Below, in pieces: positions 35,334-62,341 of a stretch of DNA of 64,000 nt. A model generated the notes under the pieces. The model did not search any database and was not told where the DNA came from. It saw only the letters and a list, made by a program, of their open reading frames with translations. The position numbers were made by a program, and so were the translations under genes. The first letter of the stretch is position 1; each line of letters opens with the position of its first letter. The stretch comes from Brachycybe producta (lineage: Eukaryota; Arthropoda; Diplopoda; Playtdesmida; Andrognathidae): positions 1,084,001 to 1,148,000 of the forward strand of contig JAUPFP010000041.1 of NCBI GenBank assembly GCA_036925085.1. Direction: 5' to 3'.

Positions 35334-35350
35334 TGGCGCAGTCGACAGGA
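35334..35350 (+). promoter_or_regulatory. primer binding site
   Basis: TGGCGCAGTCGACAGGA starts two bases after the 5' LTR. The same 17 bases follow the 5' LTR of the second element (45767-45783). The sequence is consistent with the 3' end of a tRNA-Ser, a primer used by several gypsy-type elements. The actual host tRNA was not checked. Confidence 0.8.
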
Positions 35351-35441
35351 TTTTTTTTAATTATTGGATGTTTTCAGGATAGGATTTTTTTTTATTATTG
35401 GATGTTTTCAGGATAGGATTTTTTTTATTATTGGGGTAATA
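35346..35441 (+). repeat. leader direct repeats
   Basis: Three tandem copies of a roughly 40-bp unit containing CAGGATAGGATTTTTTTT and ATTATTGGATGTTTT, starting at the end of the primer site. The unit boundary reuses CAGGAT of the primer site, suggesting slippage during minus- or plus-strand synthesis. Confidence 0.75.
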
Positions 35442-35882
35442 AATGAGAATTATTGTGTTTTAGAGTTGACAGAATTTTGCCAGTTTCGTTTTCATAAAAC
35501 TCTTTGTTAATTGTCTTGGGGATTTTGTTGTTGTTTGGAATTTAAATTTGTTTATGTGATATTGTTGTGGGAGGTTCAACCCAGGTAGAAATTCCCCTGG
35601 ACATTAATGGCCAATTAAGTGCATGATAGATTTAAGTTGCATCTTTTGTTGTTGTTGTTTTTCTATTTCTCTGGTTTTAAAACTTGGGGTTGGGAGAGTA
35701 TTGTGGGAAAGGTTAAAATATATTTTTTTTAATTTTATTTTTTCATTGCGCACCCCCAACAAAATACACACACGCACCCATACACGAAGTCTCTTAAAAG
35801 TGGACCAAAACATTTGGGTTGTGGGCCTCAATTTTCAAAAAGATTGCAGGGTTTGTTTTGCAGGAACTACCAACTCATCAAG

Positions 35883-36614
35883 ATGGCAACAGGTGGTCAA
35901 TCAGCAAGAGAAGAACAATCAGCACTGATGTATAGTCACAATCTGATTCAATACTTTTCTGGAGATGGTAAAGGACCTTCAGCAAGAGAAGTATTTGAAC
36001 AATTAGAAACAGTTGGAAGGTTAGCTAATTGGTCGAAGCAGTTCCAAATTGTTTTGTTTAAGTCTAAATGCAGAGGTCCAGCAGCAGAGTTCTTCCGAGA
36101 CCATCCTGCAGTTAGACAAATAACGGAGATTAATGAGTTAAAAGATTTAATCATACAAAGGTTTGAACCCATAGAACCAAAACTTGTGTCCATGCAAAAG
36201 TTCTTGGAGGAAAAACAAAGCAGTTCGGAATCAGCCATCGAATACATTTTTAGGGTAAAGACTAGAGGTAGAGCTTTTACCAGTGAGAATCCCACTGAGG
36301 ATGAAATAGTTATGAGGGATGGGATTGTACAAAATCAAATAATTAAAGGACTACAACCAAGGATTAAAAGATTCGTACTGTCCAGGAATCCAAAAGATTT
36401 AGATGAGACAATCAAATTCATATTAGCAGAAGAAGAAAACGAAAAACTTGTCAATGCAAAATATGGTTTAAACGTTGTAAATGAGGGATCTGAGGCAAAT
36501 TGGATAGAAATAATTGAGCAGAGAATGTCTAGGTTAGAAGAGCAGCAGAAAGCGAGACTTGCAGAGATAGACAAAATGTTTGTACAGTTAGCAGACATTA
36601 GCCGAAAAAAGTAA
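35883..36614 (+). CDS. gag: gag (capsid-type protein), 243 aa
   Basis: The ATG at 35883 (MATGGQSAREEQ) opens a complete frame ending TAA. The middle (WSKQFQIVLFKSKCRGPAAE, ...LIIQRF, ...QSSSESAIEYIFRVK, ...IIKGLQPRIKRFV) has the helical spacing of Ty3/gypsy-type Gag capsid domains. A coiled-coil-like end follows (WIEIIEQRMSRLEEQQKARL). There is no CCHC zinc knuckle, unlike the related element downstream, so RNA binding would rest on basic residues or be lost. Confidence 0.7.
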   Translation: MATGGQSAREEQSALMYSHNLIQYFSGDGKGPSAREVFEQLETVGRLANWSKQFQIVLFKSKCRGPAAEFFRDHPAVRQITEINELKDLIIQRFEPIEPKLVSMQKFLEEKQSSSESAIEYIFRVKTRGRAFTSENPTEDEIVMRDGIVQNQIIKGLQPRIKRFVLSRNPKDLDETIKFILAEEENEKLVNAKYGLNVVNEGSEANWIEIIEQRMSRLEEQQKARLAEIDKMFVQLADISRKK

Positions 36615-37553
36615 TTGTTGAAATATTGAAAATTTATGGTGAATAGTTTCAGAACATTTACTTCGACAAGAGTTGAGAGAGAATCAATGAATTAAAGCAA
36701 ATGGGTAGGATGCCCTGTAAGAAAAAAATTAAGATAGGAATGTGGAGGCTCGAAGAGGAAAAAATTTAAGAGGTTTAGAAAAAGGTTTTTAGATAAAAGA
36801 AATGATTAATAGATGTATTTCTAAGGTACACACATTGACACATCAATGGTGGTTAAAATCCACAAACAATCTCATGACAAATGTATGGAGAGTTTGAGAC
36901 CAAAGGGACAAAAATGGCAAATGAATTACCATTCCCACAACCATTGACAAGTCAATTAAAAGAGAAAAGGTGTACCAGAGAAAAGTTTGGATATTAAAAG
37001 AATTAGTTGTTGAGAAAAAGGTTTAGTGGATAAGGGTATTGGTAGATTTGGTGATGTGTCAGACAACATGCCACAAAGTCAAAATTTGTTAATATTCAAA
37101 AGAAATAAGAAGTGAATAAGATGATGGACTGTCTTAGGTAATAAGGTTTGTGATTTAGAGTAAATTTGGGAAATGAAGAAAATGAGGTTTCAGATTAAGG
37201 TTGTGTTTAAGTATTAGAATTAGAAACTCAAAAAAGGGTGAGATTGAGTTTTTCAAAAATACGGATGTGCTCAGAAGAATTGCATGTCATTTATAGCAGA
37301 GGAAAATAAAAGGTGAACATGGTTAAGGAATTTAGGTTTATTTCTGAGAGATTATATGTAATGATGATAATAAGTTCAGTAAAGAGGTTTTAAGGTTATT
37401 AGGTCAGATGTTGTCCAAAGAGGATTGTGAAATGGAGATATGATTTGTTTGAGTCACGTGTTAATAGATTTTTTGAAATAGTAAATAGTGAGTACTGGGG
37501 TTTATGAGAATAAAATTAAAATGTAAAATTCACATGTGAAATAAAAAGAAGTC

Positions 37554-37565
37554 TTAGGGGGTAGG
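37554..37565 (+). promoter_or_regulatory. second polypurine-tract-like motif upstream of env
   Basis: TTAGGGGGTAGG is identical to 12 bases of the polypurine tract before the 3' LTR (40965-40976). It may act as a central plus-strand primer or mark a junction where an internal segment was lost. Confidence 0.5.
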
Positions 37566-37699
37566 TACCTCAGATTATTTTATGAAATTCGAGGATGAAC
37601 AATTTAATGAAGAGAGCACATAGATAATGAAAAAATAGTTACAAAGAATGTGAAAATGACATGTTTATCTAACCATTAGGGATATAAATGTGGGGAGAT

Positions 37700-37721
37700 G
37701 AGATGTTTATTTTGTTTCAGG
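37700..37721 (+). promoter_or_regulatory. likely splice acceptor for env mRNA
   Basis: TTTATTTTGTTTCAG|GT just upstream of the env ATG at 37738 has a good pyrimidine tract. This fits expression of env from a spliced subgenomic RNA, as in retroviruses. The matching donor was not identified. Confidence 0.5.
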
Positions 37722-37737
37722 TAAAAACGAGAGGCAG

Positions 37738-40439
37738 ATGAGAAAAATGGATCTAATGAAGTTGTTTATGATGATGCTGTTATGGGGAACAGTGGCATCG
37801 ACTAAAGAATACGAAGTCGAGAAATGCAAATGGGAAGATGGTGCAAAGATATGTAAGATGGAAATAACAAGTGATCCGAAGCAGTATTCAGAGAAAATAG
37901 GTCCAAAGCATGGATGTAAAGGTTGTATTGTAAAATGGGTAACTATGAACAGAGATGCGAATAAACAGATGAAATCGGTTACAGGATTTCAATTAAAGCA
38001 AACGGAAATTGAAAATGGTAATAGTGAAATGTACGTATGCGAAAATTTTGAATTACCATGCACATGCGTGCAAAATAACACTTGTTCAGGTACAAATGAG
38101 TACTGTCAGCAAGTGAAGAAATGCTCAAAAGAAAAAGTAGATTGTCATTGCAAAATAGTAAAAGCAGATGCACGGATGGTGCATGTAGATGATAAAGGAA
38201 GAGAATGGGATGGTTTTGAACTAATATCCTTCAGAGAATGTTACTTCAGAACTAGATCACCAAAACAAAAAACGATTGGGAGAAAATTATTGGCCGAGGA
38301 TTTCAAAATTGAGGGAAAGAAAAATTTCATTAAATTTAATGATCCGGTCATTACAGTGAGTGCAGAGGGCACTCTAATAATAAGAAAAGATGGTGTTGAA
38401 AGAAGTTCAAAGGTGGGAAAAGCAAAACAAGTAGTAATCGATCCAGAATTTGGAATGGAATCAAGAACCATTCATATTATCTTTATTTCAAAGCAAGGTG
38501 ATATGATTGAAGGAAGATTTCATATTGAGGGAAGAAATATTTGTCATAGAATTAAGTGTATTATGTGTTTAGAATTTGTGTATAATCTTGATTGTATGCC
38601 TACTTACTTATCGTACGGTATTGTTGTAACCTTAATGATATTAACAAGTATACTCATCATTTATTTGAAAGTTGTTATCAAAAATGTTTATAATTTTATG
38701 TATTGGTTTGTGTTTATTATTGTTCAAATTTATTATTGTTTTAAAAAGTGTTTAAAAATAAGTATGGTAATCGGTGTCGCTAGTGGCAACAAAGTAAAGA
38801 CAAAGGTCAATAGAATTACAGATGGATATAAAAGATTGGAAGAAGGAGTGAGACCACAAACAAGTACAATATCGTCAACAGTGGTTTATGTTATTGTAAT
38901 TGTTGGTTTAGTACTCATGTTGATATCAGGCATCGGAGGTCGATGCACTGAACATAAAATGATCAAATCAAGTATAACAGAATGTCAAGAGACCGGAATG
39001 GGTCTACAATGTTCATTAGCCACATCGATTCAACTCACATTAACGGCTTTAGAATATACTGCTTGCTTATGGTTTAGTGATAGCCAGGAAAATCAAGTAG
39101 CTAGCTTGGAAGTTAAGTTTGAAAGTGTAGATTGTGAGTGGAGTACACAACTCTCATACTATACCTTTCCTACTAAAATGTTTACGATCAATCAGGTAGC
39201 ATGTCCTCAAAACAAATATTGTGGGTGGGGGGATCATTGCCATGCTGATTATAAATTTGAAATGTTAACACAAGAGTCTTTAGATTGGCCAGGAGTAACA
39301 GATTGTCACGCAGCAGATTCAGGGTGTATTTGTTCCTTGAATAGTTATCAACCATGTCATCATTATAGATGGTGGTTAAAACCCGATTAGCAAAATATTT
39401 TTGAAGTGAAAAAAGTAGTGGGATCAAAATGCAGACCCAAGATAAAAGCAACATTCAAAAATAACGGTACGGAAACAGAATACATGATAACTTCATTAAG
39501 AAATGAACCAGGTCATTTCTACATCGAAGTGGTTGGCGTATTTGACCAAGCAACAGACATTATTTCAAAACATTTGGTTGTCAAATTTAGCCACATTATT
39601 GAAGCATACTTAGAAACAGCAGCTGAGGTTCTCACAGACCTTTGAGAGGACAATTAGGAGATGTCCAATCAGGAGATCCTATTCCGTCTCAATTTATCTT
39701 CGACAAACGAATGGTACAGTGCAAGTTCTACGATGATCGAATGGATTGTGAAAAGGTGAAATCATATCTAGAGATCATGATGCAGACAAAACAGAACTTA
39801 TTACCAATGACAATCATGAACAACAAAATGTTTGCTGAGGAAGGTGGACAGTTAAAATCAACTTTAGTTGCATCCAGCCCAGCCGTTGTATTCATCACGG
39901 TTGAGAACTATAAAGTGGTAATCAACACTATTCGAGTGTGCCCAAGGATACAAAAAATTGTCAAACATCAAGGTTGTCATTCGTGTTCATTTATGGCTCT
40001 ACTCATCATAGAAGCATATAGTACTTGCTTGCCTGGAAAAGTCATGGTTACATTCGAGAACATACCTGTGAGCACCAGATCGGTTTCATTGACAACATCA
40101 CCTCAACAGTTAGAAATTCAACTGAAACTGGACAGAAAGTGTGTCAATGACAAAGTGTGTTTACGCTCGAAAATCGGAACTGCATGTGAACAGTTCAACT
40201 TATGTTTTGAAGATCCACAAGTGATACTTCAACAAAGTATGGACGAAAAGGTATCATCAAGAGCAGGATTCGCATCGGGACATGACATTGAAGTTTCATC
40301 GTTATTTCCAAACCTTTTTGGGAACTGGAGTTCATTGTTTTCTACTTCAATGTTATATGGTCCAATTGTGTTCTTTATATGTGTATTCGGTTCGTGTTAC
40401 ATGTTTTCGTGTATGCTAAGTGTCTTACGTGCACGGTAA
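37738..40439 (+). pseudogene. env: env: bunyavirus-like Gn-Gc type glycoprotein precursor, broken at two sites
   Basis: The first frame (37738-39390, 550 codons) has a signal peptide near the start, a Cys-rich ectodomain, and two hydrophobic segments at about 38600-38750. A further hydrophobic segment at about 38880-38940 looks like an internal signal before a second Cys-rich ectodomain. This is the two-protein layout of phlebovirus-type Gn and Gc, and the second ectodomain has the Cys/Trp pattern of class II fusion proteins. An amber stop at 39388-39390 and a frameshift near 39625-39645 interrupt it. The remainder (to 40439) ends in a membrane helix and short basic tail. The older relative at 57274-60470 supports the single-frame ancestry. 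Confidence 0.75.
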
Positions 40440-44189: not shown

Positions 44190-44516
44190 GCTCAGCTTGC
44201 ATTTTAAAGACGCATTAAAACGCAAATATGCAAGCAGTAACGTGAAAAGTTACAAAATGCAACATAGCGCTTGGTTTTAAAGCTACAGAAAGCAAATATA
44301 CAGTCTGGCCTTCACAGTTATTGAATACGAAACTATTGCACCTCAGTAGAAGGGTGGCACAATTCAAAAAAAGACTTTTTTGGGAAAATGAGTTTAAAGT
44401 TAAAAGAACCATGGCTTAGTTTGCTGAGCTTTTCAAGTGCAAAAACCGTTTTAACTATTCACAATATCTGTTTATTTGGATCCCCTACAATAGATTGAGA
44501 TAGAAAAAATGCAAAC

Positions 44517-45763
44517 TGTTACATGCTAAAACATGTAACATGTATGTTTTCTAATAGTATTACTATTTTGATATAGTAGTTATTAAAATTATCTTTCACA
44601 TTTTGAAATAGGCCTATAACATAAAAAGAGGACACAAATATTTTACATTCAAGCAACTTTGCATTTAAGAGGGTAGTGGATAAAAAGTATGTTTTTTTAT
44701 GTACAAAAAATTTTTTTCAAGTTTTTTCAAGAGGGTGGGGTCAGAGTTTTTTGTATTTTTTGTAGTTTTGTTGTTAGGCTTACATAATAAATCCATCTCT
44801 TTTTAAACCCCTACAAACATAACAGGACAGTGGAACAATGATAGATGTATGTGACTGAAATAGCCAGACACACATCAAAAATGAGACTTTATACATTAAA
44901 GAAAACTAAATAAAAAGTCGCCCTCCCTCCGCCTCCCAAATACAGTAAAAAGAAAAAACGCCCAACTTGTTTCACTGGTCCTGGTTATAAAAAATAAGAC
45001 TATAGATTAAACATACATTTTTGTTATTTTTGATATACTTAATATTCAATTCACACCAACAAAATAAGCCAATCAGCAGTAGAGCAGTGGATTTCAAAGA
45101 AAGTGAAAATAGTATAAATAAGCGGAATTGTAAACTTAACTTTCACTGGGATTTTGGCTTTTGCCATCACATCCAAAGGAAACCACTGAAGCTCTGCTAG
45201 GTTGGTATGCCTAAGATTGTTGATGTCATCTGGTCATTCCTACACTAACCAAACCATGGAATACTACTGTGTTTAGTTCTGCTGCTTTCAGTGGCTGTTA
45301 ACAGTGAACAAACCTAGGATATAAGCTTATGTGTTTGTTTACACAGTACACTGATCTGTAACACAATCTAACCGTGCAACCACTGTGTTCAGTTGTGTTG
45401 GAAGGTACTAAGAGAAGCATTTGCAATTGAAAGGCATATTAACTCCAACATGGACATCTTGATGTAAACTGTGTAATCTGGTTTTTTCTTATTTTCTTTT
45501 TTCATTATTTTTTTTGTATTATTTTTATGGACATTTTTTTATTATGTGTTAGAACTTTTTAAATTTCGTATTATTATATTCATATTAGGGCTGGGGACCT
45601 AACCATGTATAACATAACATGATTCATTAAAACATTTTTCTTATTAATTTGTGAAATCATTGTATGTCTTAAATGGTCTTCATTGGCCGAATACCGAACC
45701 TAAAGTTAAAAACAGTTACTCCTTCTTATAATAAAGCCTTCGGTCACTCAAGGAGAAGTAACA
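44517..45763 (+). mobile_element. 5' LTR of the Ty3/gypsy-type element
   Basis: 1,247 bp. Starts with a 9-bp hairpin (TGTTACATG ... CATGTAACA). TATAAATA at 45113-45120 is preceded by CCAATCAG at 45069, a good promoter layout. AATAAA at 45730-45735 lies near the end. Confidence 0.9.
45113..45120 (+). promoter_or_regulatory. LTR TATA box
   Basis: TATAAATA with an upstream CCAAT motif, kept in both LTRs (61709-61716 in the 3' copy). Transcription would start about 30 bases downstream. Confidence 0.65.
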
Positions 45764-45766
45764 AAA

Positions 45767-45783
45767 TGGCGCAGTCGACAGGA
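45767..45783 (+). promoter_or_regulatory. primer binding site
   Basis: TGGCGCAGTCGACAGGA, identical to the site of the gag-env element, three bases after the LTR. A tRNA-Ser primer is likely. Confidence 0.8.
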
Positions 45784-45856
45784 TTTTGAAAAAATTGATA
45801 ATATAAATTTTTTTGGTTCAAAAAGCATGTGGTTTGCACTATAACAACATTTTAGT

Positions 45857-46127
45857 ATGAATCATTCACATTTAATGCTATGTCCCTGGAACAAAAAATG
45901 TGGTGTAATCAACAAATCTAAGTACAATTCACATTACATGAGATGTCCTTACAGCCCACGAAATCAACAATCAGTTTGTCAAGTTTCTGAACACATTAGA
46001 CCCACAAAGTCATGCAACTTTTATATTCCTCCTCCAATAGACGATTGGGACAAAGATTGAAATGCAAAATACAACAAATACCACTGAAACAGAAGATTGG
46101 GAAAAAGAAGCATTATCACCTAAGTAG
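45857..46127 (+). CDS. GTSF1/Asterix-like CHHC zinc-finger ORF carried by the retroelement
   Basis: The ATG at 45857 opens 67 codons. Residues 9-30 read CPWNKKCGVINKSKYNSHYM RC, matching the CHHC finger of GTSF1 (C-x5-H-x9-H-x3-C) with Cys for the first His and one extra residue. A second Cys/His cluster follows, and the frame ends IPPPIDDWDKD. The ending matches the acidic Trp-containing segment of GTSF1 that contacts Piwi proteins. One frame over, 46062-46127 reads TEDWEKEALSPK, a second such motif, so a frameshift probably split a longer tail. GTSF1 assists Piwi slicing or silencing, and its finger binds tRNA. The ORF lies about 75 bases after the tRNA primer site. Alternative: another CHHC protein such as a U11-48K or TRM13 relative. 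Confidence 0.6.
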
Positions 46128-46169
46128 AAGAACTACAAAAACAAGCAGAACAAAAAAACAAATACTGCA

Positions 46170-46450
46170 CTTTTGCACTTGTATGCAAATTCGTGCGTTT
46201 GTATGCGTTTTTTTCATAATGTACGTGATTTATGCGTTTTTATGCGATTTACGCGATTTACGCGTTTTAAGCGAATTTACACATTTTACGCGTTTTTATC
46301 ATAAATTACGCGTTTTTCCGAAATTTACACATTTTTCTCTTTTTGCGCATTTTATGCAAATGTGTATGTTTTTCATATAATCTGTGTTTTCTTTGTATGC
46401 GTGAACGTTTTTATGTGTTTATGCAAATTGATGTGTTTTCATTTTTATAT
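46170..46450 (+). repeat. degenerate TTTACGCGTTTT repeat
   Basis: About 280 bp of imperfect repeats mixing ATGCGTTTTTATGCGATTTA and TTTACGCGTTTTAAGCG. Aromatic-rich open frames across it are by-products. Confidence 0.8.
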
Positions 46451-48327
46451 TGTGCCAAGCTCACCAGTCTATAACATGTATGTGTTTTAAATGTTTGTCC
46501 TTTTTTACACTATTTTTTTGTTTTTACTTCTATATTATGTGTGTATCTCTTATAAGTGTTTCCAGACTATTTGTATTATGAGATTAGATATCCATTATAT
46601 TCAGTTGTCCCTAAAAGAATACAGCCTCTGTATTTTTGATCTTCCAAAAAAGTATTCAAACTTTCTAACAATAAACTCAAAATTAAACTTATGAAATAAT
46701 GGTTTTTCTCTTGTGAAAGGAAGTTAGTTTCTGTCCCTTCATAATAACACTGAGATTGATACATGTAATAATTAAATACTCTGAACAGAATTCAAAAGAA
46801 AACCCCTATAGCTAGAATCACAAAAGGTCCTGAAAAGCTAGATAAATTATAACATGTCACCCACCCCCTCATCCATAAGAGAAATCGCAATTTAAGCCCA
46901 ACTTAAATTGTAGTTTCTCAGGGTAATAAAATTATGACTTAATTTTTACATAAAAATCTTAGACTGACTCATGCAGATTAGTAATTTAATTAAGAAAATA
47001 ATCAACCAATCAGTGAACTCCAATGATTCTCTATGAGAGAGAATCTGTATAAAAAGGCCAACATTTTGGCTAAGTTTGGTATTGAATCCAGCATTGGACT
47101 TGGAACAAGAACATCTCTCTCTGGAACACTTTGTGGACTCTGGACTTTGTAAGCTGACAACTATTAGTAATTTATATGGGAACACTTGTGTAAGTAACTG
47201 ACGGTAACCAGAAACTAAGAAGCCACAATCATAAGATTGGCGGTTCCTTGTTAATGGACATTATCTTGGTAAAAACACAAGTTACCCTGACTTTGCTCAT
47301 AGCCTCATTCTGAGGGTAACCTGTGTCGGCCTAAAAAAGAAACTTAGAATCTTCTTAGTGCTATAGCCTGACAGTTTTCTTAGGTACATGAGAAGCCATA
47401 AGCACCAAAGTGGTTTATTGTCAAAGGACACATAAGTTGCTATGATCTTTGATCATCGGTTCCTTTTGTCTAATAGCAATTTAGCCATGAAACAGTGATT
47501 TTCGGTTCGTTTTTGCCTGAAATTTCTTTGGCTAAACCACTGAGAAAGAGGTCTTTTTAGTGTTAAAAGCCTGACAGTTTTGTTGAGCACATGAGAAGCC
47601 ATAATCATCAAAATGGTTTATTGTATAGACATATAAGTTGCTATGATCTTTGATTATCGGTTCTTTCAGTCTAAGGACAATTTAGCCATGAAAAACTGAT
47701 TTTCGGTTCTTCTAGCTTGTTCATTATCTGGGGTAACACAAATTTGAAGGGTGAAATAAACACCTATTGGTCAAACTCAGGTTATTGTGACAGCCAACCA
47801 TATCTTCTAAATGAACTACTGGAGGCTTCTGTTGTAAGTGGTTGAATATTTTCTTTCAATTTTAATTAGGTCCATTTAGTTAGAATTTCCCAACCAAGAA
47901 AGCTACCATTTAAAGTTACTCTTAAGAAAATGGGACCTTAACATATTTATATTTTAGTTTGAACACTTATGCATTGTGCATTGGTCTATTTTTTGTCCCC
48001 CTCCCTTTTTCCCTTTTAGGTGGTTGTATTCTTATTGGACCTGAACAGTTTTGCACCCTTTTTGCCTGAAGCCTTATAATGCCCAAACCTATGATACTAC
48101 TTGTTTGAACTTTACTCATATATTAAGTTCAATCCTACCTTTTCCTTTAAAGTTGTATGTCATTTGTCTTATTGCCAAATTTATAATCTTGAAAATCTCT
48201 ATATATTCAAATAAATAAAAATTCATGTTTAATATAAAAGTCAAGTTGAGTGGAATTACTATAGATCTTCACTGATCTCAAGAACCTGAAGATTTTAGAA
48301 AAAATGTTGGCTTTCTCATAAACAAAG
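46451..48327 (+). other. internal region where gag capsid would be expected
   Basis: No capsid-type frame is readable. A promoter-like stretch (CTGTATAAAAAGGCC at about 47048) and a late AATAAA at about 48212 suggest that a solo LTR of another family may sit at about 46855-48225, but its ends and target duplication could not be fixed. Just before the zinc knuckles, broken frames may hold the end of gag. Confidence 0.35.
47345..47730 (+). repeat. two tandem copies of a roughly 215-bp unit
   Basis: The blocks ATGAGAAGCCATAA..., TAAGTTGCTATGATCTTTGA and CAATTTAGCCATGAAA recur at about 47389-47520 and 47590-47720. A weaker third copy lies near 47216-47260. Confidence 0.75.
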
Positions 48328-48510
48328 GTGTCTTCCCTTAGAGAACTGCTAACATTGCCATGTTTCAATTGTAACAAAATTGGACATTTTGCCAAAAACT
48401 GTAGATCCCCAAAATATAAAAAAAATCCACTTTGTTGTTTTTATTGTAACAAACTGGGACACAGTGCAAATGTTTGTAGATTAAAATCCAGAACTAACCA
48501 ACAACATTGA
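48328..48510 (+). CDS. gag: gag nucleocapsid with two CCHC zinc knuckles
   Basis: CFNCNKIGHFAKNC and CFYCNKLGHSANVC are two perfect C-x2-C-x4-H-x4-C knuckles 11 residues apart, followed by a basic tail. They package retroelement RNA. The frame is cut off from any upstream capsid. Confidence 0.85.
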   Translation: MSSLRELLTLPCFNCNKIGHFAKNCRSPKYKKNPLCCFYCNKLGHSANVCRLKSRTNQQH

Positions 48511-48843
48511 GGACCACAAAATTATCAAAATCAGGGAAACTAACAACTCTCTTTAGAAATTTAGCATGTCACAAAGGGAGAGTACAAACCAAACAACGCA
48601 TCACTTTAAATAGCATGGCTGAAAATCACTCTTGTCCAATATTTTCAGCATGTATATTAAATTCAAAAGTAAAGGTACTGTATGATATAGGAGTTGCTAT
48701 CTCAGTGATTTCTAAGTCCACCTTTGATGCTATCAAAAGCAGGTATGGTCAGAGGATAAAGAAACTTTGTAAAGTAGACAAAATTGACATCATTGCTGCA
48801 AATGGGAAACTCTTTCCTATAATAGGATCCTATATTTCTCTAT
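48507..48843 (+). pseudogene. pol: pol: aspartic protease, N-terminal part
   Basis: Contains VLYDIGVAISVISKSTFDAI, the retropepsin active-site region in which D-T/S-G has become D-I-G. ANGKLFPIIGS follows. The frame is cut by the LINE. Its end appears at 51697-51850 (NYEIILGINAIKHLGLKYDP). Confidence 0.75.
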
Positions 48844-49027
48844 TTGAATTTGAAAAATTACTCTGCAAGCAGCCATAAAGGCCTATGGCAGTGGGACAAG
48901 AGTCCAAGTGCAGCATAGAAAATGCATTGTCAAAACCAGAAAATATAAAACCCTATTGATATAAACCCAACAACAATTTCAATATTTTTAATGCTGCAAA
49001 TATATGCATTGTCAAAACAAAACAAAA

Positions 49028-49372
49028 TTATGACTCCCATAAAATACGTTTTTCCTGCACAAAATCCCCAGCAAGCGAGTTCCATTGTCGAATCGCCCTA
49101 GGGACAAATGACCAGTAATAAAAATCTGTTCGTGCAAAAATCTCTCCAACTTTGTTAGAGTGGCCACCCCTACCCAAATATAATGCCCTGCAAAGTTTAC
49201 TTGAAGTAGGTTTAGGGCAAGAGCCTTCTAGCATTCGATTAAAGATATTAAGACTAAAATCTGAACGTCTTGCAAGTAAACTATCCCAACCAAGCTCTAA
49301 AAGCATTTTAGTTACACTGTCGGCATATCCATATTTACCACAAACAAACCTAGCAGCCCTGCGTTGGACCAC
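49028..49372 (-). pseudogene. LINE ORF2 C-terminal region
   Basis: VQRRAARFVCGKYGYADSVT, LGWDSLLARRSDF and FVPRAIRQWNSLAGDFVQ form the conserved C-terminal region after the RT in CR1/Jockey-like LINEs. Truncated copies of the same region occur at 58831-59120. Confidence 0.85.
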
Positions 49373-49532
49373 CTGAGTGAGCTAAGTCTTCAGTGTGGAG
49401 ATTCCACACGGAGCTGCAGTATTCTAGATGGGGACGTACTAATGATTGATATGCTAGACATTTTACCTCCCTGGGACACCTTCTTAGGATGCGTTGACTA
49501 AACCTAAGCATCTGCATAGACTTGGAAATAAT

Positions 49533-50513
49533 CTATTCGACATGCAGCTTCCAAGAAAGTTTAGCTGTAATCGTTACCCCCAAATATTTATAAGAATCTA
49601 CGTTATTAAGTGGAATGGCCCCTATTCTATATGGAAATATTATTGGATTCCTTCCCCTAGCAACCCTCATTACACAACATTTTCCCTTATTAAGTTGAAG
49701 TTGCCATTTAGAACACCATGCCTCTATTGCTTTCAAGTCACTATCAATAATATGGCAATCATTGTCAGAGGTAACCTCACGATAAATTATTGTATCATCT
49801 GCAAATAGCCGGCAATTGCTACTAACTTGACTGCTAAGGTCATTGATAAAAGAAACAAGCGGACCCAACACACTACCCTGAGGAACCCCTGATGTAACCC
49901 CTATCCAGTCAGATTCAGACCCACCTGCAACAACCCTTTGTTTCCTGTTACTCAAAAAAGAATGCACCCATTTATACACCTGTTCACCCAATCCATACCC
50001 ACTAATTTTTGTCATTAGTTTTGAGTGAGAAACTGTGTCAAATGCCTTGCAGAGATCAAGAAAAACCAAATCTATCTGACTGCCTTTGTCTAAAATTTTC
50101 TGAAGGTCATCAACTAAAAAAATAAGCTGGGTTTCACATGAACACCCCCTAAGAAACCCATGCTGGTTATCACACAAAAGATTGTTTTCCATAAGAAAAT
50201 TCATTGAGGAGGAATATATAATATGTTCAAGGACCTTGGAAACTATCGAGATTAAAGACACGGGTCTGTAATTAGTTACCTGAGACTTGTCTCCTGATTT
50301 AGAAATTGGACTAACATTAGCTAATTTCCACATATCTGGTACAATACCTACATCTAAACTCTGTTGAAAAATTAACTGAAGGTATGGACCCAACTCTTGT
50401 GCAAGATTTTTTAAAATGATAGCATACATCCCATCTGGACCACAGGTTTTATTTGAGTCTAATTTTAGAAGTTGCTTGACTATCCCATCTGCAGTTATTA
50501 CAATTTGATCCAT
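49533..50513 (-). pseudogene. LINE reverse transcriptase domain
   Basis: 326 codons with NYRPVSLISIVSKVLEHI, DLCKAFDTVSH, GVPQGSVLGPL and the catalytic FADDTIIY. Motif order and spacing fit the CR1/L2/Jockey group. The active-site Asp pair is kept, but the frame does not connect to the endonuclease or the C-terminus. Confidence 0.9.
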
Positions 50514-50670
50514 ACAAAGAGATGTTGAAGGAAAACCCTCATGTGGTATGCCATCATCAATTGTGAAGACCTTCTTGTATTGTTCATTTAATAAGGTAGC
50601 TTTCCCTACTGGATCTGAAACAAGCTTCCCATTTGTGTCAACTAGAGAAGGAATAGATTCTCTACTTCGC

Positions 50671-51477
50671 CTAGAGTTCTTGATGTAATGCCAAAATAGT
50701 TTTGGGTCCGTTTTTTAACCATTCTCCAAGCGTTTCTGTTTTAAAATTATCGTGAGCTAACAAGATTTCCCGTTTTGCTGCTGTGCGTGCAATACGGAAT
50801 TCAATGGAATTCACTAATTTTGGGTGATTTTTAGCCCTATTCCTCCATAAGCGTTGCTTACAAAGAGCCCTTTTAACTTTGCTAGTGTACCATACTGGTG
50901 TGGCACAGTCTCTAACTACCTTGGTTGGAATAAAAGAGGAAGACCCACTTAAAATTAAACTATGAAATCGTGACCAATTCAAATTCACATTTTGAGGATG
51001 AAAACATTCTTTAAATTTATGAAAATTATCTATCAAATGTGACTTAAAACCATCCCAATTACATTTGTTAAAAAGAAACACTACTCTTTTAACCTCAGAC
51101 ATTTTTTCAACACATGCATTAACATCACATAAGACAATCTGATGATCACTAATTCCCCCTGATACCCTAACATTGGATAATAACTCCGGACTATTAGTCA
51201 GTACTACATCAAGACTTTTGTCATTTCTGGTTGGTTTAGTTACAACCTGTTCCATAAAATAAGTATTCATACTATCTAAAAATGAAACTGCTAATGGCTT
51301 GTCACTGCCACTGATCACCATATGCATTTCCCAGTTGATGTTTGGAAAATTTACATCACCTCCTAAAATAATCATTGGGCTATGGTATTTATGATGAAGA
51401 GTGTAGAAAGAAGTTCTTACACTAGTGACATCTGCTATGGAGGATCCCGGTGGCCGATAGAAAGAATATAAAAACAC
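50671..51477 (-). pseudogene. LINE endonuclease domain (fragment)
   Basis: Reads MFLYSFYRPPGSS, IILGGDVNFPNINWE, PTRNDKSLDVVLTNS and GISDHQIVLCDV, the order of motifs of APE-type endonucleases (GDxN, SDH). The upstream part is in another frame. Confidence 0.85.
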
Positions 51478-51696
51478 CTTTTTACCATTCTTTAGCCTTA
51501 AACTACAACATACTACTTCACAGTCTGTTTCAAAACTTGTTTCCCTGCAACTATGAAATATTTGTGAAATAGCTATGAAAACCCCACCCCCAGAACGACC
51601 CTGTCTCTACGGTACACTGTGAAACCATCTGGAAATATTTCCCCATTATTAACAGTATCATCAAGCCATGACTCTGTACCAAGAATTATATTGTGA

Positions 51697-52740
51697 ATGA
51701 ATAAACAAAAGAAAGAAAATGTCATAATGTATGTACGTCACAGAGATCTATCCTCAAATTATGAAATTATTTTGGGGATAAATGCAATTAAACATTTGGG
51801 ACTAAAATATGACCCTACTCTTGATCGCATTTGCTATAAAGGGAAAAATATGCAGATCCATAAAAAAGGAAACCCCATGCAGATTCTCAATTCAGTTCAA
51901 CAGCAGCAAAAGGGCCTACAATGGGTAAAAACTGTTCTAGATAAAATTGATTTAAAATGTCAAATCAATAAAAAATCTCCTCACAAAGTACTCTGACATA
52001 TTTGCATGTATCTTAAAAGAGTTACAACCTACAAATAGGATTGAACAAGAAATACAATTAACAGATTCAGCACCTGTATACATAAGGCTATACAAAGTTC
52101 CACAAAACAAGAAGGTATTTTACAAGATAAAATAAAGAAACTTTTGGATGCAAAAATAATAAAGCATTCTGTTAGCCTGTACCCCTTGCATGCTTGTAGG
52201 TAAGCCCGATGGAAGTAACAGGTTAGTTATAGATTTCAGAGCTTTGAATCAAAAAGTCATTGGTGATAAATACCCTTTACCTGAAATTATTAGTGTAAGC
52301 AATCAGATGGGAAATGCAACATATTTCACATTAGATTTAGCAAGTGGATTTCACCAGATTCCAGTAAAAGCAGCCGATCAACACAAATTAGGATTCAGCA
52401 CTACATCAGGGCATTATGAATTTGTTAGGTCTCCTATGGGTCTTAAAACTTTCCCAAATGTATATACCAAAGACTCATGGATGATGTGTTAAAGGATTTA
52501 AAGGGCAAAATATGTTTTGTTTAAATGGATATCATCATCTACAGTAATACACTTGAGAAACACTATCAGGCTTGAACAAGTATTTGAGAAATTAAGGAAG
52601 GCAAACTTAAAAGCAAAACCTTCAAAATGTACCTGAATAAAAACTGAAATCATCTATTTAGGGCACACATTCAAAATGGGTTCAATGAAACCTGGTCCAA
52701 ATAAAATTGAAGCCATTGAAAAATTTCCAAGACCTATAAT
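51697..52740 (+). pseudogene. pol: pol: protease end and reverse transcriptase, decayed
   Basis: 51697-51850 completes the protease. 52190-52492 gives KPDGSNRLVIDFRALN, YPLPE, LDLASGFHQIPV and GHYEFVRSPMGLK, the standard Ty3/gypsy RT fingers and palm. The catalytic YxDD region (about 52525-52550) is damaged: a stop codon replaces the first position and one Asp is lost. Sequence to 52740 still reads LGHTFKMGSMKPGPNKIEAI. Confidence 0.85.
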
Positions 52741-52746
52741 TTATAT

Positions 52747-53571
52747 ATGAAAAAAGTACAAAGCTTTTTGGGTCTTGTAAATTTTTACCAAAGATTTATT
52801 CCAAATTGTGTTAAAATTACATCTCCTTTAACAAAACTATTACAAAAAGATGCAAAATTTGTTTGGACAAATAAATGTGAAGACAGTTTCATAAAACTTA
52901 AAAGTCTTACTTCAACACCAGTATTAACTATGCCAGATTTTAAAAAACCATTCTTTCTCACTACTGATGCAAGCAACACAGCTATAGGAGCAATCTTAGA
53001 ACATAAAATCGATGGACACTTGCACCCAATCACATATGCAAGTCGAAAACTGACATCCTCAGAACAAAACTATTCCACAACATGGAAGGAGGCACTGGCT
53101 TGTGCCTATGGAGTCAACTATTTTCGCTATTACCTGATGGGAAGAAAATTCACACTAATCACAGACCACAAACCATTACAATATTTAATGACTATGAAAA
53201 AAGACAAAGCTATGCTAACTAGATGGGCTCTCCAACTACAACAGTATGACTTCGATATAAAATACAGAGAAGGGAAAACAAACACAAATGCAGATGCTCT
53301 AAGTAGAAACCCTCCAGAAGAGGTAAATTCATTAGAAAACAACAGTTTTGGGGAAGAAAAAGAAATAATGACAGATCAAAACAACTGTCCTGAAATGCAA
53401 CCCTATGTAAGATATATATCAGGGTTTCCTTCTTCAAAATTAGTTCAAAAAGAAACTGAAAACTTAAAATTAGCACTAAATGAAAAAGGGTGGCTAGTAA
53501 AAAAGGATGAGAACTCATTTAAATTAGTTGTACCCTTACACAAAAGACCATGTCTTATCCATGTGCCATGA
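52747..53571 (+). pseudogene. pol: pol: RT connection and RNase H
   Basis: 274 codons open. Begins KVQSFLGLVNFYQRFIPNC (RT end) and continues LTTDASNTAIGAILEHKIDG, YSTTWKEALACAYGVNYFRY, TLITDHKPLQYL and NADALSRNP, the RNase H motifs of Ty3/gypsy with the D...E...D residues kept. One of the best-preserved parts of the element. Confidence 0.9.
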
Positions 53572-53769: not shown

Positions 53770-55804
53770 CAGAGGTTGCCAAACCGTCGATCGTGAGCTA
53801 CTAGTAGCTCGCGGGGAAATTTTAGGTAGATCGCGGTCGCGCTTGGGTTGGCTAACCTGAGATACACTAGTGACTAGTGACTAGTCAATAGTGCATCTCA
53901 GGGCAACAAGAGTGAGGTTATGTCTGTCATGTTTTTCACACATAGGTTGTCATTATTTTCGTGCATATATCACTGTTATTTTATTTGTTAATGTGAATAG
54001 TTATGCTAAACTAGGTTTGTTTTAGTGATGGCGAGTTCAAGCAAAAACCCAAAAGCTTATCATTTTCATTTGGAATGGGAAACCGATTATTTTTTTACTC
54101 AGGTTAAGGACAAATGTGTGTGCTTACTTTGTAATGTTAAGTGAACGTTTTGTGAGAAGTTTTGAAGAAGTTTTGAAGAAAGGGAACGTTGAACGTCATT
54201 TCAAAACCGTTCACTCAGGAATTGAAACAAATTTCCCACTGAATTCTGCATTAAGGAAAAAAAAGGTAATGCAGTTAAAGTGTCAACTAAATGCAACTCA
54301 ATTCAAGACACTAGACAAAAATAAAGCAGCAACTGAGGCATCGTTCCGAGTTTCCAAAGTCATTGCTCAAAATAAGAAACCATACGAAGATGGTGAGTTA
54401 ATCAAAAGTGCATTTTTTAAGCTGCAGATACATTATTTGACAATTTCGAAAACAAATCTGAGATAATATCTGCTAATAATCTGTACAGCTTTCTGCAAAT
54501 ACAGTAATGAGAAGAGTTGAAGCTATGAGTTCTGATGTAACTTCACAACATAAAACTGACTTTGATCGTTGCAGCTTTTTTTCCTTACAACTTGATGAAT
54601 CAACTGATATAGTTGATACGGCTCAGTTGGCCGTTTTTGTAAGAATGGTTTTTGATGATTTTAAAATAACAGAAGAGCTGGTAAAAGTTGTACCACTTAC
54701 AGGACATATTACGGGACAGGACATATTTTTAGGATTTCAAAGGCTTGTAGCGGCAGAGATTTGAAACATTTCAAAGACTAGCTTCCTGCTTTAGTGGAAT
54801 TTTTTAAAGAACGAGGTGATTCTTTCCCTGAACTAGAAGATCCGGTTTGGCTGCAAGATTTTGCTTTTCTTGCAGACATCACCGAAAAGCTAAACATCCT
54901 CAACTTGCAGCTACAAGGCAAGGATAAAGATATTGGTGGAACAGTTTCTGATGTAGTATCATTCTCTAAAAAACTAGAGCTGTGGGAAAAAATCTTATCC
55001 GAGGTGAATACAAGCATTTTGCCTGTTTGAAGCAAACCCTTGACAAGCAAGGTCTTTCACGGCCTCCTGACAACTATAAAGAATACATAACAATTCTATC
55101 GGATTTGAAAAATCAATTCAATGAATGCTTTCAAAACTTCAAAAGCATTTCAATTGTAGCGCTGTTTGTCAGATCTCCTTTTACAGAGATTGATGCCGAA
55201 GAATTCTCTACTTGTGTCATTCAACATTTTGAAGAAGACAATGCTGCAGTGGAGATGGAACTGATTGATTTCCAAAATGACCTTTCTTTAAAATCACTAA
55301 CTTCAAGCACTGAAAATACGAATATTGTCTGTAAGGAAAAATATCCAATTTTGGTTCAGGTTGGTCTACGAGTGAAGGCAATGTTCAGCTCTACTTATTT
55401 GTGTGAGGTTTCTTTTTCAAGTATGAAGTTTATTAAAAACAAGTACAGAAATAGATTGACTGATAAACATTTGGACAACTGAATTCGAATGGCAGCTACG
55501 ACCTACTCTCCTAACATCAAAAAAATTGTTGATGACAAAAAAGAGTGCCATCCTTCTCATTAAACTTAATGTGAGATGTAATTAATTTTGTTCTTACAAT
55601 TCTTGTTGATATATTCATTATATTGTAATACACAATTTTGTTAATTGAATTTAATATTTACTAGAAATGTATGTTTGTAGGCGATAAATTTTCAATGTGT
55701 GATTTATAAAAAAACTTATTTTTTTCCTGGTTTCTTTTGGTAGCTCACAGTAAGATTTAGGAGCAGTACGGTTTCACATTGGCTTCAAAGTTTGGTGACC
55801 ACTG
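53770..55804 (+). mobile_element. hAT transposon, internally deleted (TSD GTTTAGAC)
   Basis: Exact 8-bp duplication GTTTAGAC at 53762-53769 and 55805-55812. Inverted ends are CAGAGGTTGCCAAACC and, at the right, the complement CAGTGGTCACCAAACT. It inserted in the integrase core. It carries a broken transposase of the ZBED/GTF2IRD2-like type. Confidence 0.9.
54028..55563 (+). pseudogene. hAT transposase remains (BED finger, core pieces, dimerisation end)
   Basis: ATG at 54028. A BED-type zinc finger is spread over a stop or frameshift (W..DYFF, CVCLLCN, then KKGNVERHFKTVH). 54507-54764 has FSLQLDESTDIVDTAQLAVF. 54794-55030 has FLADITEKLNILNLQLQGKD. 54982-55482 has FSSTYLCEVSFSSMKFIKNK and NRLTDKHLDN, the hAT C-terminal dimerisation motif. 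Missing sequence after about 54764 indicates an internal deletion of much of the catalytic core, so it cannot move on its own. Confidence 0.8.
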
Positions 55805-57273: not shown

Positions 57274-57829
57274 ATGGGATTAGAGCTATTTTTCTCTAGA
57301 AGTCAGGATATCTTCACTGATCATTACAGAATCCTGATGATAGCAATAGTAGTAGTGAAGGTGACAGCCAGTGGAAACCATACCTTTGACCTGGAAGTCT
57401 GTAAATGGGAAGGCATGCAAAAAATATGTCGAGTGGTGACGACCCCTGACAAAGATAAGTATGCTCCAAACATTTGCAATGAGGAAGAATGTAGCCAATG
57501 TATTATAAAATGGACAAGCAAGTTTTTAAATCATAAGAAAGAAATTACAAATGCCTCCTCCTTTTTTGTTAAACAAACAGAAAATTCACAGGGCATAGAT
57601 GATATTTATCATTGTTTAAATAGAGGATTGCCTTGCTCATGTCAAAACTCAACTTGTTCAGGGTCAGGTCCTTATTTTCTAATCTCAAACAGTTGTAATG
57701 GGGAAATACAAAATTGTCACTGTTAACTAATTAAAGGCACCTCACAACTTGTTCTTTTTAATGAAAAAGGACAAGAATATAATGAGTATGAAATAGTATC
57801 CTATCAAGAATGCTACTTCAACTTATCAA

Positions 57830-57851
57830 CTAACCTAACCTAACCTAACCC
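57830..57851. repeat. (CTAAC)4 microsatellite
   Basis: Four CTAAC units inside decayed env. The complement is (GTTAG), the pentamer register seen in arthropod-type telomeres, but the run is far too short to be telomeric. Confidence 0.85.
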
Positions 57852-58638
57852 AAAGTAAACTATTAAGTACTGACTCCTTCAGTACTCACCTTGGAAATGA
57901 TTTTATTAAATTTAGTGATCAAATTGTCACTGTCAGTACAAATGGAACACTAATTATGAGAAAAGATGGTATTGAACAAATATACCATGTTAAAGAGGAT
58001 AAATTATCATCCCAACAAAAATTAGTATGGATTCTGTATCCATACATGTATTATTTGTAACTTCTGAAGGAAAAACTTTAGATGGCATGTTTGCAGTATA
58101 AGGACACAATAAGGGTCATAGAATAAATTGTATCATTTGCATGAAATTCTTTGTAAATTTATCTTGTATGCCTACATACCTATCTTATGGTATTATTATA
58201 TCACTGATATTATTGACCAGTATGTCTATATTATATTTAAGAATAGCTATAAAAAGCCTTATTGATATAATAAGATTTAGTTTTAAAACCTGCTATTGTA
58301 TATGTTATGGTTTTAAAAAATGCATGAGACTAACCATGATTGTAGGTGTTGTAAGTGGCAACACAATAAAGGGAAAAGTTAATACAGACCAAAAACAGAA
58401 TTGAAACCATGAGATTACTTGAAGAGGGTATTCCCAATCCTGTTCATCCGACACTGATTTATATTATAATATTTGTGGGAATACTCTTAAGCTGCTGTTT
58501 ATCATAGCTAAATGTACTGAGCACAAGCTTATTCAATCAAAAATCGTAGAATGCCATGATACATTGGCCGGGCAAAAATGCCAACTATCCACCCAGCTCC
58601 AAGTAATACTCACAAATTTAGAATACACCAGTTGTTTA

Positions 58639-59120
58639 TTTGAATTTGAATTTGAAAAATTACTCTGCAAGCAGCCATAAAGGCCTATGGCAGAGGGACA
58701 AGAGTCCAAGTGCAGCATAGAAAATGCATTGTCAAAACCAGAAAATATAAAACCCTAATGATATAAACCCAACAACAATTTCAATATTTTTTAATGCTGC
58801 AAATATATGCATTGTCAAAACAAAACAAAATTATGACTCCCATAAAATACGTTTTTCCTGCACAAAATCCCCAGCAAGCGAGTTCCATTGTTGAATCGCC
58901 CTCGGGACAAATGACCAGTAATAAGAATCTGTTCGTGCAAAAATCTCTCCAACTTTGTTAGAGTGGTCACCCCTACCCAAATATAATGCCCTGCAAAGTT
59001 TACTTGAAGTAGGTTTAGGGCAAGAGCCTTCTAGCATTCGATTAAAGATATTAAGATTAAAATCTGAACGTCTTGCAAGTAAACTATCCCAACCAAGCTC
59101 TGAAAGCATTTTAGTTACAC
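58639..59120 (-). mobile_element. second CR1/L2-like LINE copy, 482 bp (TSD TGTTTA)
   Basis: Matches the 3' end of the LINE at 48844-51690 almost base for base, including the AAATTC-type tail (here repeated once more). TGTTTA lies at 58633-58638 and 59121-59126. Severely 5'-truncated; inserted in env. Confidence 0.9.
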
Positions 59121-60557
59121 TGTTTATGGCTAACTGATGAACAGGGCACCAATATGGTAAACCTGGAAGTAACATTTAATTCAGTTAATTGTGACTGGAT
59201 GATACAAAAAAATGTATTATACTTTTCCTACAAAGTTGTATTCTATTAACCAAGTTGCATGTCCTCAAAATGCACACTGTGGTTGGGGTGAACACTGCCA
59301 TGAAAATTATAAGTTCGAAGCTCTAACAAAAGAAGCCTTAGATTGGCCTGGGGTCACAGATTGTTATGCAGGTGATTCGGGAAGCATGTGTATTATAATT
59401 GACTCCCAACCTTGTCATCATTTTCGGTGGTATCTAAAACCTGACAACCTACAGTATATCAAAAGAGTAGTGAGTATGGACTGTTTCCCCACAATCAAGT
59501 TTGTAATAAAGAAAAATGGTACTGATGAAACATTTTTTGTTAAAAAAGCAAGACACTTGCCTGGGGATATATTTGTAGAAATACTAGGTACCTTTGATCA
59601 GCCAACTGATCTAATTTCGAGACATTTAGTAGTTTGGCATAATAAGCCCTGGCGGCTTATCTTGAAACTGCTGCTGAACCACACCCCCCATTAAGAGGAC
59701 AAATTGGAGATGTCCAAGCTGGATTTCCTATGGCAAGCACCTTTATTTTTGATCCAAAAATGGTTGATTGTAAATTTTATGAAAAAAGAATGACGTGTCA
59801 TAAGCAAGCATCATATTTAGAAGACTTAATATCTATAATTTTTAATTATATTTTAATTAATAATCTACTCCCTTTAACAATCTCCAATCATAGAATGTTA
59901 ATAACCTCTACCCAAATAACATCTAGCCCTGCAAGTCCAAATTTCTATAAATAACTTAAAAGTAACGTTGCACACCACTAAAGTACGCCCTAGACTCGAA
60001 AAAGTTATTTTGCATACTGGTTGCTTTTCATGCGTCCTAATGGCCACTATATATATAGAAGCTTATAGCGCCTGCCTACCTGGTGAAGTACAAGTAACGT
60101 TTGACACCACTACGATGGCAACTAGAACCATTTCTCTAAAAACACACCCTGAAAAACATATGATACAGCTTAAATTAGATAGTAAATGCATACATGAAAA
60201 ATATGCCTTACTTCTAAGGTGAAGTCATGAAGTCTTTGAAGGTTGTTTTGAGGATCCCCCATTAGTATTTAACCAACCCAATGAATCAATTACTAGTTCA
60301 ATAGGAGGTTATTCTCCTGGAGAACTACTGAGCATAACAAATGTAATGCATAGCATGTTTGGTGCATTAGGATCCACCTTATATTCCCTCCATTATTGTA
60401 ATTTTGGTCATAGTCCTAGCTCTATATATTTTTTCTTGTGTACTAAGTGTTTTAAAAAGATAAATTTTTGTAAAAAAGAAAAAAAAATTAACAAACAATA
60501 CACCAGTTCTTGTGTTTGTGCAAGTGTTTGTGAGTGTTCATTAATTAACAAAAAATA

Positions 60558-61112: not shown

Positions 61113-62341
61113 TGTTACATGCTAAAAACATGTAACATGTATGTTTTCTAATAGTATTACTATTTTGATATAGTAGTTATTAAAATTATCTTTCACATTT
61201 TGAAATAGGCCTATAACATAAAAAGAGGACACAAATATTTTACATTTAAGCAATTTAGCATTTAAGAGGGTAGTGGATAAAATGTTTTTTATGTACAAAA
61301 AACTTTTTCAAGTTTTTTCAAGATGTGGTGGTGGGGTTTGAGTTTTTTGTATTTTTTGTAGTTTTGTTGTTAGGCTTACATAATAAAGCCATCTCTTTTT
61401 AATCCCCTGTTATGTTTGTACATAACAGGACAGTGGAACAAAGATAGAGGTATGACTGAAATAGCCATACACACATTAAAAATGGGACTTTATACATTAA
61501 AGAAAACTAAATAAAAAGTCGCCCTCCCCCTCCCAAATACATTAAAAAGAAAAAACGCCCAACTTGTTTCACTGGTCCTGGTTATAAAAATAAGACTATA
61601 GATTAAAAATACATTTTTGTTATTTTTCATATACTTAATATTCAATTCACACCAACAAAATAAGCCAATCAGCAGTAGAGCAGTGGATTTCAAAGAAAGT
61701 GAAAATAGTATAAATAAGCGGAATTGTAAACTTAACTTTCACTGGGATTTTGGCTTTTGCCATCACATCCAAAGGAAACCACTGAAGCTCTGCTAGGTTG
61801 GTATGCCTAAGATTGTTGATGTCATCTGGTCCGTGGAATACCACTGTGTTTAGTTGTGCTGCTTTCAGTGGCTGTAACAGTGAACAAACCTAGGATATAA
61901 GCCTATGTGTTTGTTTACACAGTACACTGATTTGTAACACAATCTAACCGTGCAACCACTGTGTTCAGTTGTGTTGGAAGGTACTTAGAGAAGCATTTGC
62001 AATTGAAAGGCATATTAACTCCAACATGGACATCTTGATGTAAGCTGTGTAATCTGGTTTTTTCTTATTTTCTTTTTTCATTATTTTTTTGTATTATTTT
62101 TATGGACATTTTTTTATTATGTGGTAGAACTTTTTTAATTTCATATTATTATTATATTCATATTAGGGCTGGGGACCAAACCATGTATAACATAACATGA
62201 TTCATTAAAACATTTTTCTTATTAATTTGTGAAATCATTGTATGTCTTAAATGGTCTTCAGTGGCCGAATATCGAACCTAAAGTTAAAAACAGTTACTCC
62301 TTCTTATAATAAAGCCTTCGGTCACTCAAGGAGAAGTAACA
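61113..62341 (+). mobile_element. 3' LTR of the Ty3/gypsy-type element
   Basis: 1,229 bp, aligned over its whole length with 44517-45763 but with many substitutions and several small indels (for example near 61270-61345 and 61830). Keeps TATAAATA (61709) and AATAAA (62308). Followed by AAAC. Confidence 0.9.

Follow-up and report, generated by a model that had tools for sequence, protein, structure and literature searches.

GTSF1/Asterix carries two zinc fingers of CHHC type, with the pattern CPxxKxH...(K/R)...(F/Y)..H..(K/R)C, and a tail in which tryptophan is set in an ED-W-D/E context. The protein is described as a binder of tRNA, the loss of which hits LTR elements disproportionately (PMC9539491). 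For mouse GTSF1, the joint mutant of R26, R29, K36 and K39 is reported as a loss of function, interpreted as lost RNA binding, and the tryptophans W98, W107 and W112 are reported as required for Piwi binding and as defining the Piwi surface (PMC9385479). In lepidopteran GTSF1s, a T.SERRK...RP stretch at the C-terminus comes after the ENWDDE motif.

Reading frames upstream of gag are already known from retroelements. In the mdg1 group (412, mdg1, Stalker), sORF1 and sORF2 precede gag and show low nonsynonymous/synonymous rates, sORF1 being predicted as a nuclear helix-turn-helix protein and sORF2 being a FAST-like fusogen (PMC11952523). ZAM and Beagle have a short peptide exon upstream of gag (PMC12992720). 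LTR elements of bdelloid rotifers have captured an ORF3 (DEDDy, GDSL), one class of which was compared with the piRNA factors Maelstrom/EXD1 (PMC5408684), and TART-A has taken up nxf2 sequence that is proposed to act as a piRNA source via DNA identity (PMC7785250). A GTSF1-like frame upstream of gag was found in no report among the literature matches listed, in a search covering few subscription papers. The accessible text of a GTSF1 review (PMC9539491) and of a 2026 host–transposon review (PMC13269885) makes no mention of an element-encoded GTSF1, and that of a 2026 paper on the piRNA defence against insect endogenous retroviruses (PMC13172572) mentions neither GTSF nor accessory genes.

The gene described here, termed ORF1, shares with GTSF1/Asterix a finger of similar pattern, the tryptophan of the ED-W-D/E tail and, for the most part, three of the four basic RNA-contact positions; it differs in having one finger instead of two, a finger loop longer by one residue and, in most copies, cysteine as the second zinc ligand. 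Some subfamilies have a further Trp-acidic motif, PF05253 is not matched, and the gene is encoded by a retroelement. With the mdg1 group it has in common the small accessory frame upstream of gag in a Ty3/gypsy element, and it is set apart by description: the sORF accounts available to us contain no zinc finger or Trp tail, and the mdg1 group is without env, which the ORF1 element possesses. The bdelloid elements likewise hold lineage-specific extra genes, and differ in that ORF3, as far as the source describes it, is not a leader gene and adopts other folds. The likeness to TART-A is that of a retroelement with something from a piRNA-pathway gene; the difference is that the role proposed there works by DNA identity, whereas ORF1 is conserved as protein and is without such identity.

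Results

Architecture of the element

The window, that is, the whole 64,000-nucleotide stretch of DNA analysed, lies on contig C41 of the 295-Mb genome G000 and contains a decayed member of a multi-copy, env-bearing element family of the Ty3/gypsy type (Table 1). The assignment draws on the LTRs, a target-site duplication of 4 bp (AAAC) flanking the element, the tRNA primer site, the order gag-PR-RT-RH-IN (with the protease identified by eye) and the presence of env; the LTR retrotransposon proposed in the initial annotation is thus borne out by the LTR pair, the duplication and the tRNA-Ser primer site. The complement of the primer site occurs as 23 exact 20-mers across the genome, and ARAGORN called tRNA-Ser AGA/CGA at three fetched, mutually overlapping loci. 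As that annotation had it, a 67-codon frame follows directly after the primer site, starting 72 bases past it, and TEDWEKEA is present one frame over.

Table 1. Features of the window element (positions in the window).
Feature	Position	Strand	Basis or remark
5' LTR	44517..45763	+	TG...CA ends; 93.4% identity to 61113-62341
Primer-binding site TGGCGCAGTCGACAGGAT, 18 bases	45767..45784	+	complementary to the 3' end of host tRNA-Ser(AGA/CGA)
ORF1 (GTSF1-like), N-terminal 67 codons	45857..46060	+	CPWNKKC...HYMRC finger, PPPIDDWDKD tail, premature stop
ORF1 continuation, frame-shifted (TETEDWEKEALSPK)	46083..46127	+	second Trp-acidic motif; contiguous in relative L002
gag remnant, two CCHC knuckles	48328..48510	+	PF00098 E 2.3e-10; alignment to L035
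Protease-region remnant (VLYDIGVAISVIS)	48507..48878	+	motif by eye; interrupted by LINE insertion
Reverse transcriptase remnant	52190..52492	+	PF00078 E 1.1e-8
RNase H domain and start of integrase region	52747..53571	+	PF17917 E 1.1e-38; integrase part by eye
env remnant	57411..60240	+	collinear DNA match to L035, from which the coordinates are inferred; interrupted ~58640-59120
3' LTR	61113..62341	+	93.4% identity to 5' LTR

The window copy is broken, with ORF1 frame-shifted after DWDKD and with a LINE (RVT_1 and endonuclease Pfam matches on the minus strand) and other DNA nested within. N-terminal gag was not found in this copy, Pfam gave no protease match for the protease-region remnant, and an Rfam scan of window positions 44400-49000 returned no result of use.

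The minus-strand LINE occupies window positions 48842-51700, and part of it recurs about 9.8 kb on, in the env region at 58644-59087, with 98-99% identity. An insertion within the integrase region (~53770-55790) resembles, by eye, a hAT/ZBED-type transposase gene. Directly 3' of the ORF1 remnant, at the expected gag start, AT-rich imperfect repeats (TTTATGCG/TTTACGCG) extend over 46180-46420.

ORF1 in genomic copies

The 67-aa window ORF gave 32 matches at E<=10 in the genome, 30 of which were fetched for reading. A full open ORF1 of 136-154 aa, comprising start Met, finger, tail and C-terminus, is present in nine of the 30 (L002, L005, L006, L007, L008, L016, L017, L020, L023), so that intact relatives with the frame at the same place do exist; the other 21 have stops, indels or missing starts. 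Relative L002, at another locus, reads ...PPPIEDWDKEIETQNTTNTTETENWEKEALSPKEVEEL... in a single frame through to 136 aa, which identifies the window ORF1 as frame-shifted and truncated. In copies where both could be read, ORF1 starts at most ~110 bases from the primer site. Four neighbourhoods of ~10 kb (L031-L034) have the order ORF1, gag, pol and glycoprotein gene, with a primer site upstream of ORF1 in three of them (L031-L033), the L034 stretch being too short to show one; a fifth neighbourhood, L035, is without N-terminal gag. Pfam scans, made of L032 and L034 only, found rve and RVT_1 in the former and an env glycoprotein of Phlebovirus_G2 type (PF07245, E 1.1e-24) in the latter. Identity of the ORF1 nucleotides at three loci (L006, L007, L008) suggests recent movement of the element. 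Protein database searches with ORF1, and viral-contig scans with ORF1 and gag, found no ORF1 relative outside genome G000.

One further copy, L021 (C3:11780764, reverse), has a 490-aa open frame that contains ORF1 and continues past the usual end into other sequence.

Of 66 ORF1 pairs compared, many show synonymous saturation, and dS is still ~1 to 2.6 in those that can be used, which makes the ratios rough; for pairs with computable dS, Nei–Gojobori dN/dS between subfamilies is 0.11-0.35, with single pairs at 0.11 (L007-L005, 152 codons), 0.18 (L020-L017, 138 codons), 0.24 (L020-L022, 114 codons) and 0.25 (L007-L002, 134 codons). Near-identical pairs have too few changes to be informative: 1.63 on seven changes for L020-L023, 0.54 on seven for the window copy and L002, 0.08 on four for L007-L011, and four nonsynonymous with no synonymous changes for L017-L016. 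The values between subfamilies argue for purifying selection, and a frame kept in copies together with low, if rough, dN/dS indicates that ORF1 is a maintained protein-coding gene.

Relationship of ORF1 to GTSF1

Compared with the PDB (177,635 sequences), the window ORF had mouse GTSF1 (6x46_A) as its only match at E<=10 (E 0.2), spanning finger and tail, and a nine-row ORF1 profile ranked GTSF1 first at E 0.092, the next match having E 2. Alignment of that profile by hhalign to 18 GTSF1 sequences scored 36.6 (P 2.2e-5, probability 76%), compared to a maximum of 22.0 in 200 column-shuffle permutations; P was 4.7e-5 with three GTSF1s. The match to 20 lepidopteran GTSF1s alone was weak (P 0.0035, probability 9%) and placed ENWE-E against ENWDDE. 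The Pfam profile zf-U11-48K (PF05253), proposed at the outset as a check on the 67-codon frame, yielded no match at E<=10 for the window ORF or five relatives, and it does match the host GTSF1. A second CHHC finger was seen in none of the ORF1 copies read. Because the PF05253 match and the two-finger arrangement are both absent, ORF1 is best referred to as GTSF1-like and strict membership of the family is not claimed; of the GTSF1/Asterix-like identity first suggested, the likeness holds, by the PDB ranking and an hhalign score above all shuffles, and the profile match and second finger do not. U11-48K is not favoured as nearest kin, since 2vy4 is in the PDB library and is found by the host GTSF1, yet is unmatched by ORF1. 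A single-sequence AlphaFold2 model of the 67-aa ORF had a mean pLDDT of 46 and was unusable for fold searches.

ORF1 comprises one CHHC/CCHC finger, one or two Trp-acidic motifs (PPPIEDWDKE and/or (S/T)E(N/D)WE(D/S)E) and a conserved C-terminus. Across the nine rows of the alignment, zinc ligands 1, 3 and 4 do not vary, ligand 2 being Cys in six rows and His in three; the E-x-W-E-x-E motif is also invariant in these rows, as is the equivalent tryptophan (W107 type) in 18 GTSF1s. A larger set of 16 fingers was collected with a pattern that prescribed ligands 1, 3 and 4 together with the P-x-N behind them and left ligand 2 and the basic positions free; the conservation of ligands 1, 3 and 4 in this set proves nothing, the pattern having fixed those columns, and 14 of the 30 loci, damaged or off-pattern (such as L024), were left out of it. 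Ligand 2 is Cys in 11 of the 16 and His in five, and the loop is one residue longer in all 16. The initial annotation was right, for the window copy, in noting Cys for the first ligand His and the longer spacing. The expected conservation of Cys/His and Trp was found for the tryptophan and for ligands 1, 3 and 4 across the nine rows, not for ligand 2, and the ligand His is lost in the decayed copies L004 and L014.

Positions equivalent to K36, K39 and R26 of mouse GTSF1 are basic in 16, 15 and 14 of the 16 fingers, respectively, and that of R29 in only six, with Ser or Gly in the other ten; in this mapping the extra residue was set after the second ligand and K39 was placed by eye across a three-residue gap. 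On this comparison, ORF1 has mostly retained the W107-type Trp motif and, of the four basic positions for RNA contact, three. The ORF1 C-terminus MTKTQK...RP is similar by eye to GATPSERRKAR...YRP of moth GTSF1, a similarity given no statistical weight.

Sister lineages and host genes

A gag search had 585 candidates, of which 150 were scored. Among the matches listed, all 18 with E<=4.1e-74 and identity of at least 64% adjoin an ORF1, 17 of them one found in the genome search and one (C2:1678514) a degenerate copy; at 49-58% identity, two decayed matches among those listed (C96:202980, C3:10339997) adjoin an ORF1, these gag and ORF1 lists being limited such that more distant ORF1s could be missed. 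Five ORF1-bearing gags form a clade with support of 100/100 in a tree of 16 gags, from which ORF1 appears to mark one gag clade. That ORF1 belongs to the element lineage as a whole was rejected, in that most of 13 leaders examined (12 fetched and one in the window) carry other or no leader genes: a degenerate ORF1 stands in L069, zinc-module ORFs of other kinds occur in six (L059-L063, L068), L067 has a single zinc-module ORF, and five (L064, L065, L066, L070 and the copy at window position 35334) have no clear leader gene, the stretch read for L066 having ended short of the primer site and so covering its leader incompletely. Two sister lineages could be followed to the primer site (L074, L075). 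Their leader begins with a finger ORF, CPW...C...F.KHVA.C, and continues with a series of C-P-x4-C...C-x2-H ORFs, an ERDWDLQ ORF and another zinc ORF before gag; the sister leader is possibly a larger accessory-gene island.

Sister leader ORFs scanned with Pfam had no match near cut-off, and of two compared with the PDB, one had a chance-level match (E 1.1) and the other none. By hhalign, ORF1 scored 30.5 with the sister finger ORF (maximum of 100 shuffles, 23.7) and 23.8 with the sister ERDWD ORF (shuffle maximum 17.2). GTSF1 scored a weak 19.6 with the ERDWD ORF (shuffle maximum 17.4) and 11.2 with the sister finger, below the shuffle maximum of 18.3, so the latter is not GTSF1-like. From its scores to each, ORF1 would stand between GTSF1 and the sister leader genes; an old capture followed by divergence and a convergence on GTSF1 would both fit its origin.

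Long leaders with rows of small zinc-module ORFs were seen in L071 and L074 (C7), L072 and L075 (C13, reverse), L073 (C85), L059-L063 and L068, with a separate ERDWD Trp ORF in L061, L062 and L068. The second element in the window (~35334-40439) has the same primer site, a related gag (51% identity), an env and no clear leader gene; it shows no long pol frame between gag and env and is perhaps a non-autonomous derivative.

The host has a GTSF1 gene (contig C24; matching Pfam zf-U11-48K), and a U11-48K-like gene named by eye from its sequence. A Piwi-domain model, which covers Argonautes and Piwis alike, matched 17 exons distributed over four contigs. DNA comparison of five ORF1s with 1.7 kb of the host GTSF1 gene gave only scraps of 11-34 bases (best E 0.025). 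As regards the captured host gene of the initial annotation, a recent capture from host GTSF1 is therefore disfavoured, the similarity not extending beyond these scraps; an older capture of GTSF1 is possible.

Discussion

The gene, its place next to the primer site, its conservation and its GTSF1-like residues are directly established. As to function, the likeliest reading, at slightly under even odds, is that ORF1 is a Piwi-binding mimic competing with host GTSF1. Translation of ORF1 would take place at the 5' end of the RNA of the element, and the protein would bind piRNA-loaded Piwi via its ED-W-D/E motif, with RNA possibly bound by the single finger. The finger being single and altered, the protein may fall short of GTSF1 in stimulating target cleavage or co-transcriptional silencing; by withholding this stimulus while bound to Piwi, it would compete with host GTSF1 on the Piwi complexes that reach the element RNA. 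Such a competitor fits best with a gene that combines an RNA finger with a Trp motif of Piwi type, has no second finger, is under selection as a protein and is carried by a likely piRNA target. For it counts that finger, basic residues and Trp motif appear to agree with GTSF1 together, in a host that has GTSF1 and Piwi-domain loci. Against it count the missing PF05253 match and second finger, the modest hhalign probabilities (76% and 9%), the R29 position lost in ten of 16 fingers, the His lost in L004 and L014, and the lack of any ORF1 relative outside this genome in the protein-database and viral-contig searches; moreover, a motif as short as ED-W-D could evolve more than once.

Two other functions are each unlikely, though clearly to be reckoned with. 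In one, ORF1 is an RNA-handling accessory: through its finger it would attach to the leader RNA or to the tRNA-Ser primer and so help to place the primer, to package the RNA or to translate the leader, while the Trp tail would bind Gag or another element protein. The complementarity of the window primer site to host tRNA-Ser, the closeness of ORF1 to that site, the mostly kept basic positions of the finger and the tRNA binding described for GTSF1 (PMC9539491) speak for this role; yet any leader ORF would sit near the primer site, a Piwi-type Trp motif is unnecessary for handling primer or RNA, and there are sister copies that have persisted with no clear leader gene. This last argument is weakened by the leader-less copy in the window, which is also without pol, and by the chance that such copies are mobilised in trans. 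In the other, put at the same low level, ORF1 is a zinc-finger regulator specific to the element, its GTSF1 pattern having come about by convergence, with a role comparable to that of mdg1-group sORF1 as a nuclear accessory protein. The many other CP-x4-C zinc modules in sister lineages are consistent with convergence, as are the lack of a Pfam match for ORF1 and the first-ORF finger of the sisters, which resembles ORF1 and not GTSF1; it is countered by the joint match of finger, basic residues and Trp motif to GTSF1 and by GTSF1 being the top or only PDB match.

Very improbable, by comparison, is that a fragment of GTSF1 captured from the host works at the nucleic-acid level, with piRNAs from the element targeting the host gene in the way suggested for TART-A and nxf2 (PMC7785250): that precedent notwithstanding, such RNA targeting is disfavoured by the lack of DNA identity between the five ORF1s and the host GTSF1 gene, and conservation acts on the ORF1 protein. 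A chance frame in the leader of a decayed LTR element, as the frame shift of the window copy and its E of 0.2 in the PDB search, taken alone, might have implied, is ruled out for all practical purposes by the 32 genome matches, the full frame in nine of 30 fetched copies and its conservation between diverged subfamilies at low dN/dS.

Viruses are well known to encode proteins that suppress small-RNA silencing; such a protein in a retroelement, directed at the piRNA pathway, would, if true, be a surprise. A GTSF1-like protein encoded beside a tRNA primer site would make a natural probe, either of a Piwi hijack or of the purpose of tRNA binding by GTSF1. More broadly, and doubtfully, the env-bearing Ty3-type lineage may hold, in the interval from primer site to gag, a locus for counter-defence that consists of a single GTSF1 mimic in one clade and is split and expanded in sister clades (finger ORF, ERDWD ORF, about six zinc-module ORFs), the products acting jointly against Piwi-piRNA silencing. 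Were this the case, it would be a transposon-encoded, protein-based anti-piRNA system comparable to the accessory genes of complex retroviruses.

Additional observations on the host genome

The tRNA-Ser genes occur in tandem at a spacing of 180 bases (G000:C4:1347524-1349695 and L076-L078), in an array that mixes AGA and CGA anticodons, the common 3' end being the one matched by the primer site. The mitochondrial contig reads with the invertebrate code and, judged by eye, has an arthropod-like appearance. COI matches outside the small contig C442, which is taken as mitochondrial, lie at G000:C1:12697743 and C17:4028030-4028468 and are probably nuclear copies.
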